DNA of 64,000 nucleotides from Nannochloropsis salina CCMP1776 (Eukaryota; Sar; Eustigmatophyceae; Eustigmatales; Monodopsidaceae), in the NCBI GenBank assembly GCA_004565275.1, contig SDOX01000005.1, positions 966,765 to 1,030,764 of the forward strand, given 5' to 3'. Position 1 is the stretch's first letter, and each line of letters opens with the position of its first letter. Positions 5,023 to 58,843 of the stretch are shown here, piece after piece. Under the pieces are notes generated by a model. It had not been told where the DNA came from, made no database searches, and was given only the letters and a program-made list of their open reading frames with translations. A program made the position numbers and the translations under genes.

Positions 5023-8000
5023 TCATGGTGCTATTGAACGGCAAAACTCATAAAAGTGCTTCAAATTTTGCACGTTGGCCACTACTAAAGGATGGGCGAA
5101 GTGCCGATCAAAAAATTCGGTGACCGCCTGTGGGCTGCGCAGAAAGATGTGTTCCCCCGCGGGTTCCATGATGCCACGGATAACGGTGACGACATCCCGC
5201 ACGACCGTCCATATCTGTGGCTGGTTGAAAAATCCCAGTTCCCCCATGTAGGCTTCGAAGCGGTCGACCAATAGCTGGTCGATGACCGTCTGCTGGCCTG
5301 AACAAGCACCTCTAGCGCTTGTCATTTGCGCAACGCCGTCAGACTGAATCAGGGCATGGTAATGGAAAGGCAAATCCTGTGCATTATGGCGGTGATGACC
5401 CTCCTGGAGGTGCTGTTGGTGTTGTCGTGGTAATTGTTGTTGTTGATGTTCTTGTCGTTCTTGTTCTTGTTCTCCTTGATGTTGGTGTTGATGTTGTTGT
5501 TGTCGTTGATGGAGTAATAGTGTTTGTTGTTGTGGTTGTTGTTGAAGATGTTGTTGTTGATTTTGTGTTTGTTGTTTTTGTTCTTTTTGATGTTCTTGCT
5601 GTTGTTGTTGCTGGTGCTGCTGCTGCAGGTAAAAGTAAGCAGCGTACTGCTGAGGAGATGGGTGCAAATGCGCAGCCCAATGTTGTTGCTGCTGCTGCTG
5701 TTGATAGCGCAGTTGTTGATGGTACTGCTGTACCTCTTGTGGTTGTTGTTGCTGCTGCTGTTGTTGTTGATGGAGTAATAGTGTTTGTGATGACTGGTGT
5801 AGTTGTGGTTGCTGCTGCTCTTGTTGTGATAGTTGAAGAGGCGGTGGTGATGATGATGATGATGATGATTCTTGCTGTTGCTTTATCACATTTGGATTTT
5901 GTGGTTGTGGCTCAAATGCACAAGCGACTTCTGCATTTTCCACCGAGCCCCTTTTAGCGTCAGAAGATGACGGAGCCTTGTAAGATTGGTGTGCGGACAC
6001 GCTGGATGTCCTGGAGGTCACATGGGCAGGTGTGGACGCTGCCAAGATAGGATCCACTCCATGGGAGGCAAAGACTTCTCCAGTCCTTCCGCTCTTCCCC
6101 TCCACTCCAGCGAGCAGCGACGCACTTGCCGAGGAAGGGAGTGACAGTGAAGAAGAAGGATCTGTGGCTGACGCCGATGTCGCGTTAAGCGAGATCGAAT
6201 GGGAAGAAGCAAGCTCTACCGCACCTCTCCCGTGCTCATGTAATTTCTTTTCCTGCTTGTGCTGCTGTTTGTGGACTTGGTCCAAAACATGCTGCTGCGC
6301 CTGCTGCAAGGCTTGTTGCTGTTCATAAAGCTCGAGGTTATGTTGGTGTTGTTGCTGCTGCAGGCTCATAGAAAGGTCGTTGTTGAATTCTCGCACAGCG
6401 TTATCGCCCGAGAGGAAACGGATGAAGTGCCTCCAGAATGTTTTGACACTCACATTTGCGGTCCGCCCGACCTCAGCCAAGAAATCTTGGTAATACTCGT
6501 CAACGAACACCCGAATCTGCTCCAAAGACATTTCGGCACGATCCAGCGATGTATTCGGCTGCGGATGCAGCAATAACATGGAGAAGAGGACACGGTTTGC
6601 GGTGCGCATGGCAGTGGTCATCGAAACTGGCTGCATCTTTGTATTAGTCTTCATCCATTCCGTAAATCCCTCCCGAGCATTGCAGTCCATAACCATCCCC
6701 TGCTGTCGCCGAATCGTCGAAGCAGAGGCCATGTTCGGAAGATTAATCGCTGTAAATCCAGTGATGGCGCGTGACGACGGGAGAGATCGCTGCTGCATCT
6801 GCGCCGACGCCATGAAGGGCACATCTAAATCCTCGTTCTGGTTGAGAGAATCTGTTGGCCGGTCATTAACGCCCTCGCCTTTCATCCCATCGCCATTAGA
6901 GCCCCCTCTGAAACGGCATGGCACGCTCGACAATCGGCGCTTTTCTGGTATTACACTCCTGCTCTCTGTGTCATGCGTAGAGGCTTGGGGATCTGGAAAC
7001 CCTCTTTTTTTCCTCCTCATGCGCTTGTCTTCCGCGTCAAACATGCCGCCGCCACCATTGAGTCCATTAACACCTTCTTTTGGTACCCTCAAGTACTTCC
7101 CTGCGTGTGACGTCATTCCTAGCGAGTCCTCCTCCGCTGCTCCCGATCCATCGGGACTCCCCCTGAGACCCCCTTCTTTCTCACTGTCCGCGACCCTTCG
7201 ATAAGCTCCAGATCCCGGCACGCCAACAGGTACCACATCGGCGTCTAGCTGTTCACCGGTCGTCACGAAATACTCCATGTCCCCCTCACCGCTGGAGTCA
7301 CGCAGGAAATTCATGAAATGACGCCAAAATGTCCGCAATGATTGATTGGTGCCACGGGCCACCTCTGCCGTCAATTCCGCCTCGCTCCGCTCCAAGAGCC
7401 CGCGCAAACTCTCTATATCGAGGCTTCGGGAGCCTCCCTCTGACATATTCTCGTACCGTGGTAGACGTGGCAAGGAGCGAGCCAGGAAATTATTGACACT
7501 GCGCACTATTGTGTTAAGAGAAGAGCCGCGGTTGCACGTATTCAAAGCCATCCATCCCAAAAAGCCCATCCGTATTTCTTCATTGACCATCATGGGCGTG
7601 CTTGGTCGCTTGCCTCCCATGTATCCTGCTGCCCCCCCGCCAGTTCCGCCATTCGCCAGTGCTCCGGCGCGGCTCAATAAGCCGCCAGGAAAGCTGCTCC
7701 CGGTCCCCTGGTAGCCACCACGCTTGCGTCTACGTCCGTACCGTCTGGGTCTCGGCTTGGGAGGGAGACCGAAGATGACCCCCCGCAGGTCGTACTCGTC
7801 GTCATCGTCCTCCTCATGCTGAGGCGCGGGCCGCTGTTCCAAGTCCTCCGGTCCATCCACCTTGATTCGCTTGCGCGACTCTTCATCGTCCGACGACACA
7901 GAGTCATCATCATCCTCATCCTCATCGTCTTCATCGTCCTCCTCTTCATCTTGCACAGCTTCTACCAGCTCTCGCGCCACGGAAAAACGTCGGCCTGGCC

Positions 8001-10191
8001 CCCTTCCGCCCCTCCTTCCCCGTCCTCCCCGGGCCCCTCGGCCCCGACCCGGTCTTCCACGCGTCGAGTTCAGCCGACCGCCCGAGGATACAAAGCCTTG
8101 CAGCATTTTCCATATACGCGGCAGATTGGCATAGGCATTCTTTGTGTGCCGCTCGAACACCTGATGGTAGTTCTGCACCAGGTCTTCAAGTTCCGAGAAA
8201 TCCAAACACACGTCCACGGCCCCGCGGTCCCCCTCCAGTTCCACTAGCACTCGGTGAACAAGCGCATTCGCCGCACCCGCGAACATTTGTGCGCTGCTTT
8301 CACTCATCGTGGAATGCATACGCATGTACGTAATAAAGCTCTCCCGCAAATCTTCAGCCAGCACCGTGGACGACCGAGGCCGCCGCTTCCTGTGCCCGCT
8401 TCCACCGGCACCGCTTGCCATGCTTTGTTCATCATCGAGCCTGACACCATCCCCGACGGCATGCGCCGCGGACAACAACAAATTTCCTCCTGTCAAGGCT
8501 CTTGTGTCCATGCTACCGCCTCCAGCACCACTATCACCAGGACTGCCGTCGTTGCCGCCCAAGCTTCCGCCAGTGTGATTGCGATCACTAAGCGGAGGAA
8601 GGTCACTGTTAGACTGACTGTGCGGTCCGGCCAGAGAGATCCGATCCTTTTTCTTGGCGGCGCCCTCATAAAATCGAGGATTAAGCGTGACTTTCCTCCC
8701 CGAGGTGGTAGTCGTCGTCGTCGCCATCCCTCCCCCCGACTCGAGCGCGGGCTGTTTCTGCTGTGCGAGGCGCGTGGATTCCGACAGGAGGGCCAAGGCG
8801 GCCGAATCGCGAGCTTCACGAATAGCAGCCATCAAATTTAGAATCATTTCATTCACACTGAAGTCGTCCGCCTCCTCCAGGGCGTAAAGAGACTTGAGCC
8901 GAGCAGCCGAAGCAGTGGCAACGTCCACTTGCTCCCTCTTCTTCCGCGCTACCAGTTGTGCCATGCGAGGCCCGTATTTCTGCGTGACAAAGCGGATCGA
9001 GGAGGTATGAGGGTCGAAGGCCTCAATGAACCCCCGGGAGTTTCGCCTGTACGGATCCACCGACGGGTCGTGCAGGGCCTCGTTCAACACGTGCACTGCT
9101 TCCTCGACCCCGCGCTTGGAGAGGTAACCGGTCACGGTGCTTTGGATCTCGACGGCAGTGATTTCCACGTCCACGTCAGAGAGAGCATCCTCGATTTCCT
9201 CTTCCGTGTCTGACAGCTGCGTCGGGGAGAGCAGCTCAGGGAAAAAATCCTTTACAGCTTTGGCCAGTAATGTTTGTATGTTCGTCACGTTTCTTCCAGC
9301 GCTCTGGGATTTTTCCAACTCGAGGCACTTCTTCCGCAATGCTTCCACTTCGTCGTCGCTGGTCCTGTTGCCGTCGCTTATACCGTTGGTATTCGTTTGA
9401 CCTTGCGCGGCCATCAACCCTGCGAGAGCGTGTTGCAAAGCCATGACTTCCTGCTCTTTGCTCTGACAGTGGTGTAGGAGCTGCTCGGCACTCTTCGTGA
9501 TGGAACTCGAGCCGGTGGCCAGTAAGGGCTCAAAGAGCTCACCGATACGTTCAGATGAGAGCGATTGTGATGGGAGAGAAAGCAGGTTGCTGATAGCGGC
9601 TGATCCAGCGTTGCAGCCTGGCCCTCCAGTCGCCATGCCGCCGGTGCTGCTCTCAGTGGTTCCCGCCACCGGATTGACGGGAGCATTCAAAAAGGCAGCT
9701 CCTCCCCCTGCAGTCTGCATCATTCCGATCCGAAAAGTAGGCGGTAGTCCAAGGGAAGTGTTTCCCGTCGCCCCCGCCCCCGGCGCAGGTGTATACAAAG
9801 TTGGAACCACGCTCATGCCTCCATAAGGGTCGGTTAAAGAGACGCAGGAGCCGGTCGCGAAGTTGGCCGGAGAAATCTCAGGTAAGGCTCCTGGTGGCGT
9901 ATACTGTAAAGAGGGTCCAGATTTTAAGACAGCGAGGGCGTCTGTTGGGTCGAGAATTGCTGACGCTTGATTGCGGAAAATGTTGCTCGATGATTTTGTT
10001 TCTTGCTCAACATCACATATTTGCTCGTCTGCACCTGCTTGCTGCCCAAAATTTCTAGCGTCATGTAGTTCTTGATTTTGCCAATTTTGTTGTGCTTGTT
10101 GGTGTTGTTGTTGATGCGGTATCTCGTCCGCTATTTTTTTGTCGAAGAGGTTGCTTTGAGTAAGCTCCGGGATCACTGCATCATCTTCCAT
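5023..10191 (-). CDS. Giant Q-rich nuclear-type protein with four copies of a ~90-residue module
   Basis: A single exon of 1,722 codons starts at the ATG at 10191. I do not recognise the protein as a whole. Residues 1-300 are Q/G/S-rich with a Leu-heptad stretch. Residues 310-500 are helical and charged. A module of about 90 residues then occurs four times, at about 613-702, 869-968, 1167-1263 and 1633-1721. It has the pattern F-x2-(W/Y)-M, an A/V-x2-N-x-(V/F)-L helix, a long acidic helix and a C-terminal aromatic helix; TFWRHF is shared by copies 2 and 3. Between copies 1 and 2 lie a Gly-Arg stretch with AT-hook-like RGRPGRGRG (about 705-735), a long Asp/Glu run and a second basic patch. Q-rich tracts fill about 1270-1320 and 1430-1600. 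The composition suggests a nuclear DNA- or chromatin-associated regulator (inference). The modules recall the helical core-binding domain of tyrosine recombinases, but no catalytic domain is present. Confidence 0.85.
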   Translation of the reverse strand: MEDDAVIPELTQSNLFDKKIADEIPHQQQHQQAQQNWQNQELHDARNFGQQAGADEQICDVEQETKSSSNIFRNQASAILDPTDALAVLKSGPSLQYTPPGALPEISPANFATGSCVSLTDPYGGMSVVPTLYTPAPGAGATGNTSLGLPPTFRIGMMQTAGGGAAFLNAPVNPVAGTTESSTGGMATGGPGCNAGSAAISNLLSLPSQSLSSERIGELFEPLLATGSSSITKSAEQLLHHCQSKEQEVMALQHALAGLMAAQGQTNTNGISDGNRTSDDEVEALRKKCLELEKSQSAGRNVTNIQTLLAKAVKDFFPELLSPTQLSDTEEEIEDALSDVDVEITAVEIQSTVTGYLSKRGVEEAVHVLNEALHDPSVDPYRRNSRGFIEAFDPHTSSIRFVTQKYGPRMAQLVARKKREQVDVATASAARLKSLYALEEADDFSVNEMILNLMAAIREARDSAALALLSESTRLAQQKQPALESGGGMATTTTTTSGRKVTLNPRFYEGAAKKKDRISLAGPHSQSNSDLPPLSDRNHTGGSLGGNDGSPGDSGAGGGSMDTRALTGGNLLLSAAHAVGDGVRLDDEQSMASGAGGSGHRKRRPRSSTVLAEDLRESFITYMRMHSTMSESSAQMFAGAANALVHRVLVELEGDRGAVDVCLDFSELEDLVQNYHQVFERHTKNAYANLPRIWKMLQGFVSSGGRLNSTRGRPGRGRGARGGRGRRGGRGPGRRFSVARELVEAVQDEEEDDEDDEDEDDDDSVSSDDEESRKRIKVDGPEDLEQRPAPQHEEDDDDEYDLRGVIFGLPPKPRPRRYGRRRKRGGYQGTGSSFPGGLLSRAGALANGGTGGGAAGYMGGKRPSTPMMVNEEIRMGFLGWMALNTCNRGSSLNTIVRSVNNFLARSLPRLPRYENMSEGGSRSLDIESLRGLLERSEAELTAEVARGTNQSLRTFWRHFMNFLRDSSGEGDMEYFVTTGEQLDADVVPVGVPGSGAYRRVADSEKEGGLRGSPDGSGAAEEDSLGMTSHAGKYLRVPKEGVNGLNGGGGMFDAEDKRMRRKKRGFPDPQASTHDTESRSVIPEKRRLSSVPCRFRGGSNGDGMKGEGVNDRPTDSLNQNEDLDVPFMASAQMQQRSLPSSRAITGFTAINLPNMASASTIRRQQGMVMDCNAREGFTEWMKTNTKMQPVSMTTAMRTANRVLFSMLLLHPQPNTSLDRAEMSLEQIRVFVDEYYQDFLAEVGRTANVSVKTFWRHFIRFLSGDNAVREFNNDLSMSLQQQQHQHNLELYEQQQALQQAQQHVLDQVHKQQHKQEKKLHEHGRGAVELASSHSISLNATSASATDPSSSLSLPSSASASLLAGVEGKSGRTGEVFASHGVDPILAASTPAHVTSRTSSVSAHQSYKAPSSSDAKRGSVENAEVACAFEPQPQNPNVIKQQQESSSSSSSPPPLQLSQQEQQQPQLHQSSQTLLLHQQQQQQQQQPQEVQQYHQQLRYQQQQQQQHWAAHLHPSPQQYAAYFYLQQQHQQQQQQEHQKEQKQQTQNQQQHLQQQPQQQTLLLHQRQQQHQHQHQGEQEQERQEHQQQQLPRQHQQHLQEGHHRHNAQDLPFHYHALIQSDGVAQMTSARGACSGQQTVIDQLLVDRFEAYMGELGFFNQPQIWTVVRDVVTVIRGIMEPAGEHIFLRSPQAVTEFFDRHFAHPLVVANVQNLKHFYEFCRSIAP
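5400..5900 (-). repeat. CAA/CAG-rich (poly-Gln) coding microsatellite
   Basis: On the minus strand this part of the giant gene is mostly CAA and CAG codons mixed with CAT/CAC. It encodes long Gln and Gln-His runs. A second, shorter tract lies at about 6240-6375. Mixed codons and His interruptions suggest slow expansion rather than a pure repeat. The plus-strand frames rich in Val or Leu here are shadows. Confidence 0.85.
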
Positions 10192-56379: not shown

Positions 56380-58843
56380 TTATGACGGGACTGCTAGCCC
56401 TGTCTGGCCAAAACCGCCACTCATGTGCTTCGAGGACGATGAGGAAGACGCGGCTATCCGCGGCCCCGACGTGCCAGCACTCGCTCTTTCTTGACCACCC
56501 GCTGCGCCGGCGGATGCCACAGTGTTCCCACCCATGCCCCCTTTCAACCCTCCCTTCAGGCTCGAGGCCGACGCATTGGCAGGACGCAAAGACCGACGCC
56601 CTGGAAGCGACGGGTTTAGCGGTGCCGCTACGGCTGTCGTAAGTCCTGCACCGTCGCGCGGGTTATCGGCAGGGTCGACTGGGCCAGAGACAGTTGCAGA
56701 GGAGTGCCGGGCAAAAGACTTCGCTTTCCGCAAGATGCCGTTCAAAAAAGAGTCCGCCTTAGTCCCACCCATCGACTCGCCCAAGGCACCCGCTCCTTGA
56801 AGGTCCGAACCCCCGAGCCTGGCCATCTCCACTCTCTCCCCAGGCATGGCATCAAGCGCACACGCACCCTCCTCCTCCTTCGCGTTCTTGGTCGGTGCTG
56901 ACAGTGGCTTGCCTCCATTCCCAGCCATAAAGGCATCGGGAAGTAGGCCCGCCAACGGCTGAGTTTGTGACTGCTGCTGCTGCAAGGCGTGGCCCGTCTT
57001 GGGCCGACACCCTCCCACCTGCTGTTTGTAAATCCCTCCGTCGACACCTCCCCCTCCCTCTGCGGCACCCCAAAGCCCCACCCCCGCTCCACTAGGCCCG
57101 CTTTTCGCCGCGTAGTTCGCAGTCCCATCCCCTGCAACCTGGGAGAGAGAGAGGTGCCTTTTGTGACTCTGTTTGCCCTGGCTGCCCTGCTGATTGTCCG
57201 GACCGCCGCCCCCCTCCCCACGAGCAACGGCGGCTTCTCCGTCATCAGAAATCCGTAGGGACACCTTCAACTGGTGCAAGGGCGACTGCTGCTGTTGCTG
57301 CCTCTTCACGGGCAAAGTCGAGTCCGAACTCTGCATCGCTACAATCCCTCCCTCTCCTCCACTCGCAGATATAACGATTTCCTTCCTTACTTCGTCCCCA
57401 CCCGCTATATCCATCAAATCCCTGCCTCTCACTGCGTTATCTTTCATCGCCTTTTCCTTCGCCAGAACTACAGCCCGTCCTTTCACCCCCACATTCGCCC
57501 CATCGGCAGCACTCGGCACCCCTCCGCCGGCAGAGGCGCTGTAATATGCAGGACTCACAAATCTATCCCAATCCCATTCTATCGGCCCCGCTGAAGCAGC
57601 CAATGCCGCGGCACTTCCTATAGTGGGCCGCCCTCCCGTTGCTATCATGGAGGGCATGGTGGCGGGGGGGGACTGGTGCACGCCAAAGCCTTGCTGTACG
57701 TAGAGATCGCGGAACAGGCCCCGTAAGTAGAACATGTCGGGGTTCCCGTCGAAAGAGAGCGAGCGACAGTACGACAAAAACTCCGCAAACTGGACCGGGC
57801 AACCATGGCAGAGTTCCGCGACAGACACGGACTGCTTCTTCTCCATGATCATCTTGTACTTCTTGCTCGCGGTCTTGGCCTTCAGTCCTTGCCAGGGCAA
57901 AATGCCGCGCAAAAAATAGATGAGAACGTATCCAATCGACTCCAAATCGTCTCGACGTGACTGCTCGATTCCCAGATGATTGTTGATCGAGGCGTAGCGG
58001 GGCGTCCCGGTCAAGGAGCGGCCCTCCCGGTAGGCTATGTGCTGGAGCGTGCGCGGGTGCCGATACCGCTTGCTCAGCCCGAAATCGATGCAATGGACAA
58101 TGGCGGACGCAGACCCATGCCCGACGACGAAATTCGCGGGCTGTGCATTTGTGGTGGAGGGGCAAACGGACGCACACATGAGATGGGTGCGGTTTCGAAG
58201 GAAAGCTGGAAGACGCAGAGGACACAGGGCATGACACACAATCACAAAGCTGTTCGGGGGTGGGATTTACGACATGCGTGGCATGGACACCATGAGAGGG
58301 TGTCTTCGAAATAATGGCCGCATTTTGCCGGAGCATAGGTCGCCGGCACCCTCCGACAGGGCCGCCAGCGGTACCCCCCCCGGCCCATATTCCACGTACC
58401 TTGATGTCCCGGTGGATGAGATGGCGGTTGTGCATGATCTCTACGCGTTCCAATACCTGATCTGCGAGCTGCAACACAGTTCGGAGGGAAAAGCGGCGGC
58501 CACACTTGTTGAAGAGATCCTCCAACGAGTAACCCAGCAGCTCCATTACCATCACGTTGTAGCAATCGAGCTGCCCAAAATAGTGTACCTTGCCAAAGCC
58601 TGCGCAATGCTGAAGTTCTCGATAGACCTTGTATTCATGGCGAAGCTGAGGGCATCGTGCGCCATGCTTTTCGAATTTGACGGCCACCTTCTCACTCGTG
58701 GGGATATACTCCCCGAGGTATATGTCACCAAATGAACCCCCCCCAAGCCGCCGAGAGAGCCTGTATTTGTTGCTGATTACCGCGATGGCCTGCCCTTGCG
58801 ATCCCACGGGTAGTGGGGGTTGCGAGGATGATGTTGACGTCAT
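56380..58843 (-). CDS. Casein kinase 1 family Ser/Thr kinase with long tail
   Basis: Exons 58843-58400 and 58140-56380 give 734 residues; the 259-base intron (GTACGT...CACAG) splits HRDIK from PANFVVG. The kinase domain has the Gly-rich loop [37 protein letters not shown], then the CK1-specific [20 protein letters not shown] and [20 protein letters not shown] in place of the APE motif. CK1 kinases are constitutively active and phosphorylate primed acidic sites in clock, Wnt-like, transport and DNA repair pathways. The usual Asp of KPDN is Ala here. The C-terminal 400 residues are Gln/Ser/Gly-rich, with no domain, and may carry inhibitory autophosphorylation sites. It resembles CK1 delta/epsilon or plant CKL kinases. 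Confidence 0.94.

Follow-up and report, generated by a model that had tools for sequence, protein, structure and literature searches.

On the minus strand at 5023..10191 of the window (the whole 64,000-nucleotide stretch of Nannochloropsis salina CCMP1776 contig SDOX01000005.1 analysed here), one exon stays open for 1,722 codons, begins with ATG and encodes a protein of 1,722 aa. The protein contains four modules of ~90-100 residues, M1 to M4, that are mutually homologous by profile comparison, M4 being the most divergent copy. Together with its relatives it forms a real, conserved and unnamed family, whose modules are probably of the core-binding (CB) type known from tyrosine recombinases. 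The preferred reading, to which a probability of about 60% is assigned, makes the protein an array of four CB-type (SAM-like N-terminal DNA-binding) domains without a catalytic domain, joined by low-complexity linkers and acting as a DNA-binding regulator or scaffold. DNA binding, a nuclear role and a mobile-element origin are the parts of this reading that we infer.

The module boundaries, drawn from conservation, place M1 at 8080..8364 (residues ~610-704), M2 at 7294..7587 (~869-966), M3 at 6400..6693 (~1167-1264) and the C-terminal M4 at 5032..5286 (~1636-1720), all on the minus strand. An earlier note on this DNA had proposed four related ~90-residue modules in one 1,722-codon exon, and the open reading frame (ORF), the motifs and the profile links are all found. 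The F-x2-(W/Y)-M motif that it placed near the start of each copy occurs at residues 619 (FITYM), 877 (FLGWM), 1176 (FTEWM) and 1645 (FEAYM), and the TFWRHF that it saw in copies 2 and 3 is common to both, TFWRH being present in the ORF at residues 954 and 1251 only. In a collection of 2,335 translated ORFs, drawn from the window and as many as nine loci, a profile of M2 finds M3 (E 1.1e-15) and M1 (E 3.2e-4) in this ORF. Alignment with hhalign, whose E-values apply to single comparisons, gives 4e-7 for M1-M2, 9e-6 for M1-M3 and 5.9e-19 for M2-M3 (the last without decoy calibration) before the relative P0004 is added, and 1.5e-8 for M1-M2 and 5e-9 for M1-M3 with it. M4 against M1, M2 or M3 singly, before the addition of P0004, is not convincing (E 0.007-0.16); against pooled M1-M3 with P0004 included the value is 6.8e-6, and 3.5e-5 in the reverse direction. 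Four of the hhalign tests were calibrated with column-shuffled, reversed-rotated or block-reversed decoys after columns filled in fewer than half of the rows had been removed from real and decoy input alike. Real scores are 31-51 and decoy maxima 18.0-20.3, with none of 492-501 decoys as high in each test, which rules out chance repeats.

Protein search returned the orthologue P0001, hypothetical protein Naga_100003g95 (1,711 aa) of the eustigmatophyte stramenopile Nannochloropsis gaditana, currently named Microchloropsis gaditana, which is 97% identical to the ORF over the searched region (residues 280-1270). Three shorter relatives, P0002 (1,067 aa), P0003 (1,063 aa) and P0004 (1,020 aa), also keep the four-module array; the fourth module of P0004 is uncertain, its position having been set by eye and MAFFT. 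Relatives were sought in three protein searches, each restricted by length and by an exact-word prefilter, and the search yielding P0001 limited its scoring to the 7,984 candidates with the most words in common. From searches of this limited kind, lineage restriction of the four-module protein is plausible. Within its own 26.5 Mb assembly, the whole ORF gives three weak matches besides itself (E 0.02-0.5), and P0004 as query matches the 5023-10191 ORF alone. With P0004 as query, 0 of 423 IMG/VR stretches were confirmed as relatives, and a literature search by gene name gave 0 matches.

Conservation across these relatives is concentrated in the modules. With gaps counted as differences, identity to P0004, P0003 and P0002 in that order is 42/60/60% for M1, 48/61/63% for M2, 50/56/63% for M3 and 24/32/32% for M4. 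The linkers at residues 509-604, 705-790, 967-1162 and 1265-1630 are 5-28% identical to the same proteins, and a short stretch before M2 is 20/45/41% identical. M1-M3 are conserved as compact repeats while most linkers drift. When 19 module rows are placed on a tree, the copies cluster by position and not by species: the five groups require four changes, which is the minimum, and none of 200 shuffles is as low. Strong support is limited to 3 of 16 inner branches, and the fourth module of P0004 forms a very long branch. This clustering suggests that the order of the modules was in place before these lineages split.

The profile link between the modules and recombinase CB domains runs mainly through a paralogue of 966 codons in the same genome (C72:861954-864854, minus strand; relatives P0005-P0007). 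This C72 protein contains two related CB-like modules, A and B (E 7e-7 over 42 columns), the second of which is split by a long insert; a third stretch, C, looks like a module on visual inspection only, with E 0.004-0.08 against A or B and no SAM match in Pfam. Module A matches the window modules at E 4e-6 and the CB profile at E 2.7e-6, the latter over roughly the first half, and Pfam Phage_int_SAM_1 matches the C72 protein at about its cut-off. M1-M3 pooled with module A match the CB profile at E 4e-4, and M4 matches it directly at E 0.001 over 77 columns. The CB profile took 44 of 80 IMG/VR recombinase loci (near-duplicates and matches without the N-terminus were excluded), of which 42 passed a stop-codon filter, together with 15 of 81 XerD rows, namely the E. 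coli row and every sixth one of the others. The AF2 model of M2 is a confident helical bundle (pLDDT 86.3, pTM 0.81) with a helix order that fits CB domains, and recombinase CB domains take ranks 2-4 by VIA, which compares only candidates supplied by Foldseek, with modest Z. For a model of the C72 paralogue, VIA ranks 1-2 are CB domains, with Z 6.7 for XerA.

The catalytic half of a recombinase is not detected. PF00589 (Phage_integrase) has no match in the genome at E <= 1, whereas 14 of 14 control genomes, all prokaryotes, are positive, so the modules do not stand beside a recognisable recombinase core. No catalytic domain is matched by Pfam in the ORF and no PF00589 in the four relatives; as far as Pfam tells, the array is non-catalytic, as the earlier note had supposed. 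PF13495 is not found in the genome, and no parent mobile element was located.

A recombinase CB domain is described as gripping DNA opposite the catalytic domain (PMC3537659; PMC8138268). In the mechanism proposed here, DNA would be contacted in the manner of CB domains by several modules (M2 and, in the relatives with their net basic copy, M1), whose multiplicity would give multivalent binding at spaced half-sites. The acidic M4 and two conserved short motifs would recruit partners, and the protein as a whole would regulate transcription or chromatin in a sequence-specific way, much as plant ALOG proteins are proposed to do. The motifs, SGRKVTLNPR (8668..8715, minus strand, residues ~493-508; 62/88/75% identity to P0004/P0003/P0002) and DLRG(I/V)IFGLPPKPxPR between M1 and M2 (7747..7815, minus strand, residues ~793-815; 61/83/83%), lie outside the modules and are conserved equally with them. 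The net charge of M2 is basic in the window and in two of the three relatives, and that of M1 is basic in every one of the three relatives but not in the window; M3 is mixed, and M4 is acidic in all four proteins. From this pattern of basic M2 and acidic M4 a division of labour is proposed, the most economical guess being that M2, perhaps with M1 and M3, acts on DNA and that M4 and the short motifs act on partners.

The same charges bear on the alternative that survives best, an unlikely one that is still worth keeping in view, in which the CB-type fold has been reused for protein contacts and the modules of a Q-rich coregulator scaffold, Mediator- or corepressor-like, bind partner peptides and not DNA. 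M1, M3 and M4 are near-neutral or acidic in the window, and the Q-rich and acidic linkers with the two short motifs could recruit partners. The basic charge of M2 in the window and two relatives, and of M1 in all three, argues against this alternative, as does the DNA contact made by the related fold in recombinases and predicted for it in ALOG (PMC3537659).

Several results weigh against assigning the modules to the CB type at all. The top VIA rank for the M2 model is a retroviral matrix protein, above the CB domains; Foldseek with this model gives no significant match; and M1-M3 alone match the CB profile unconvincingly (E 0.015). An independently arisen helical bundle with no more than a likeness to CB domains, or to the retroviral matrix fold, is nevertheless rather improbable, given the chain of profile matches from M1-M3 through C72 module A to CB domains with no decoy as high, the direct link from M4, and the Pfam match in the intermediate C72 protein. 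The SAM-like CB fold guessed in the earlier note is thus largely, not fully, borne out: the M2 bundle, its CB neighbours at ranks 2-4 and the profile links of C72 and M4 fit it, and the Foldseek result and M1-M3 alone add no significant support.

That the protein is a SIN3-type corepressor with four PAH repeats is very improbable and largely refuted: it is large and of low complexity and does contain four helical repeats, and the top Foldseek row for the C72 model is the PAH structure 1e91 (E 2.4, in a search with no significant match), but VIA with that model gives Z 2.0 for chain 1e91 versus 6.7 for XerA, no PAH (PF02671) Pfam match is found in the ORF, the nine M1-M3 rows or M4, hhalign returns E 0.026-0.19 for the modules against six PAH copies of this genome, and a separate gene at C29:513019-515043, presumably SIN3, has six PAH matches over the cut-off. 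Of 11 PAH matches listed for the genome, none is in the window.

Pfam scans of the ORF, the nine M1-M3 rows and the four relatives returned nothing above cut-off, a viral fold library search gave no match, and the best hit of the PDB sequence searches was a designed helical repeat (E 0.02). A weak PDB match to topoisomerase IA (E 0.057 with 9 rows) faded with 12 rows (E 0.85) and carries no weight, and SATB1 CUT was a weak match only (E 0.85).

The nearest precedent for the proposed CB-type array is the plant ALOG domain (LSH1/G1, PF04852), in which one CB domain, derived from a DIRS1-type retroposon, is described as having become a plant regulator (PMC3537659). The likeness consists of a CB-type DNA-binding domain without a catalytic domain in a host regulator, and of four core helices (PMC3537659). 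Most of the plant proteins carry the domain once, and a zinc-ribbon insert (HxxxC, CxC) is usual in it, whereas four copies and no insert are found here. By eye, no such ribbon lies between helices 2 and 3 of the modules; M2 of P0002 and P0003 has two Cys (CPGGEAC) at the ribbon position, which are absent in the window and P0004. The ribbon is also missing from some plant ALOGs (PMC3537659). At E <= 10, PF04852 matches neither the ORF nor the nine M1-M3 rows nor M4, and elsewhere in the genome only a sub-cut-off match on C14 (E 0.16).

Tyrosine recombinase CB domains (PF02899 and kin; XerD, XerA, IntI) share the predicted fold and the profile link with the modules, and the window protein differs from these enzymes in having no catalytic domain and four CB-like copies; RitA recombinases are described with two CB domains in tandem (PMC8138268). 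In the domesticated Crypton recombinases (DUF3504 and GCR1_C proteins) recombinase parts are likewise reused in host regulators, and the catalytic site is not preserved in DUF3504 genes (PMC3212892). DUF3504 is, however, described as the domesticated recombinase itself (PMC3212892), and PF12012 (DUF3504) is not found in the genome here, nor in any control genome. MrpR of prophage SPbeta is a DNA-binding repressor with a recombinase-like fold that has lost recombination, but it is bacterial, and its likeness is to the recombinase fold as a whole and not to an array of CB domains alone (PMC10516654). Among the papers listed by searches of open-licence full texts, some of them with very narrow terms, no account of CB-only arrays was found.

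A broader, tentative proposal is that eustigmatophytes possess a private class of DNA-binding regulators, tandem CB arrays that would read spaced half-sites multivalently, and that this class may represent a second domestication of the CB domain, independent of ALOG. Two such genes have profile support here, the four-module gene and another with two or three modules, and C23 probably holds a third. This alga is oil-rich and used in biotechnology, and lineage-specific regulators of algae are poorly charted. If the preferred reading is true, the DNA-grip domain of a recombinase has been multiplied into an array without its catalytic half, which would provide candidate regulators in this alga and a natural multi-domain DNA reader.

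The C23 gene, near C23:50108-50629 on the plus strand and apparently intron-bearing, matches module A by profile at E 2.7e-11; the first half of this alignment seems repetitive and perhaps intronic, and only the second half is trusted. By eye, the C72 protein has a coiled-coil-like stretch after its modules, and the C23 gene a charged helical C-terminal stretch resembling that of the C72 protein. P0006 as query gives further matches on C47 (E 6e-4), C70 (0.0025) and C68 (1.1).

Outside the modules, the description of the protein as Q-rich holds for the M3-M4 linker (5302..6399, minus strand), with 98 Q among 366 residues, 1265-1630. This region is mostly lacking in P0002-P0004 (54-86% gaps), as are the N-terminal 478 residues of the ORF (75-95% gaps). 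The earlier note also pointed to a Gly-Arg patch and an Asp/Glu run between copies 1 and 2, which are present at 7987..8031 (residues 721-735) and 7903..7950 (residues 748-763), both on the minus strand, in a linker with 12-24% identity to the relatives. Their sequence is not conserved, and at most their character is: by eye, the relatives also have acidic stretches in the M1-M2 linker, and each of them has Gly-rich basic sequence ahead of M2, so composition may persist where sequence does not.

Ten neighbouring ORFs were scanned by Pfam, with no transposon-like matches among them and no match for the ORF at 56383-58245. The neighbours at 20277-58843 of the window are ordinary in 9 of 10 cases, comprising an ABC transporter ORF with a GTPase-type match, PPR, HMG-box, a GTPase with a KH domain, porphobilinogen deaminase, SGT1, IBR, filamin/B-box and kinase types.
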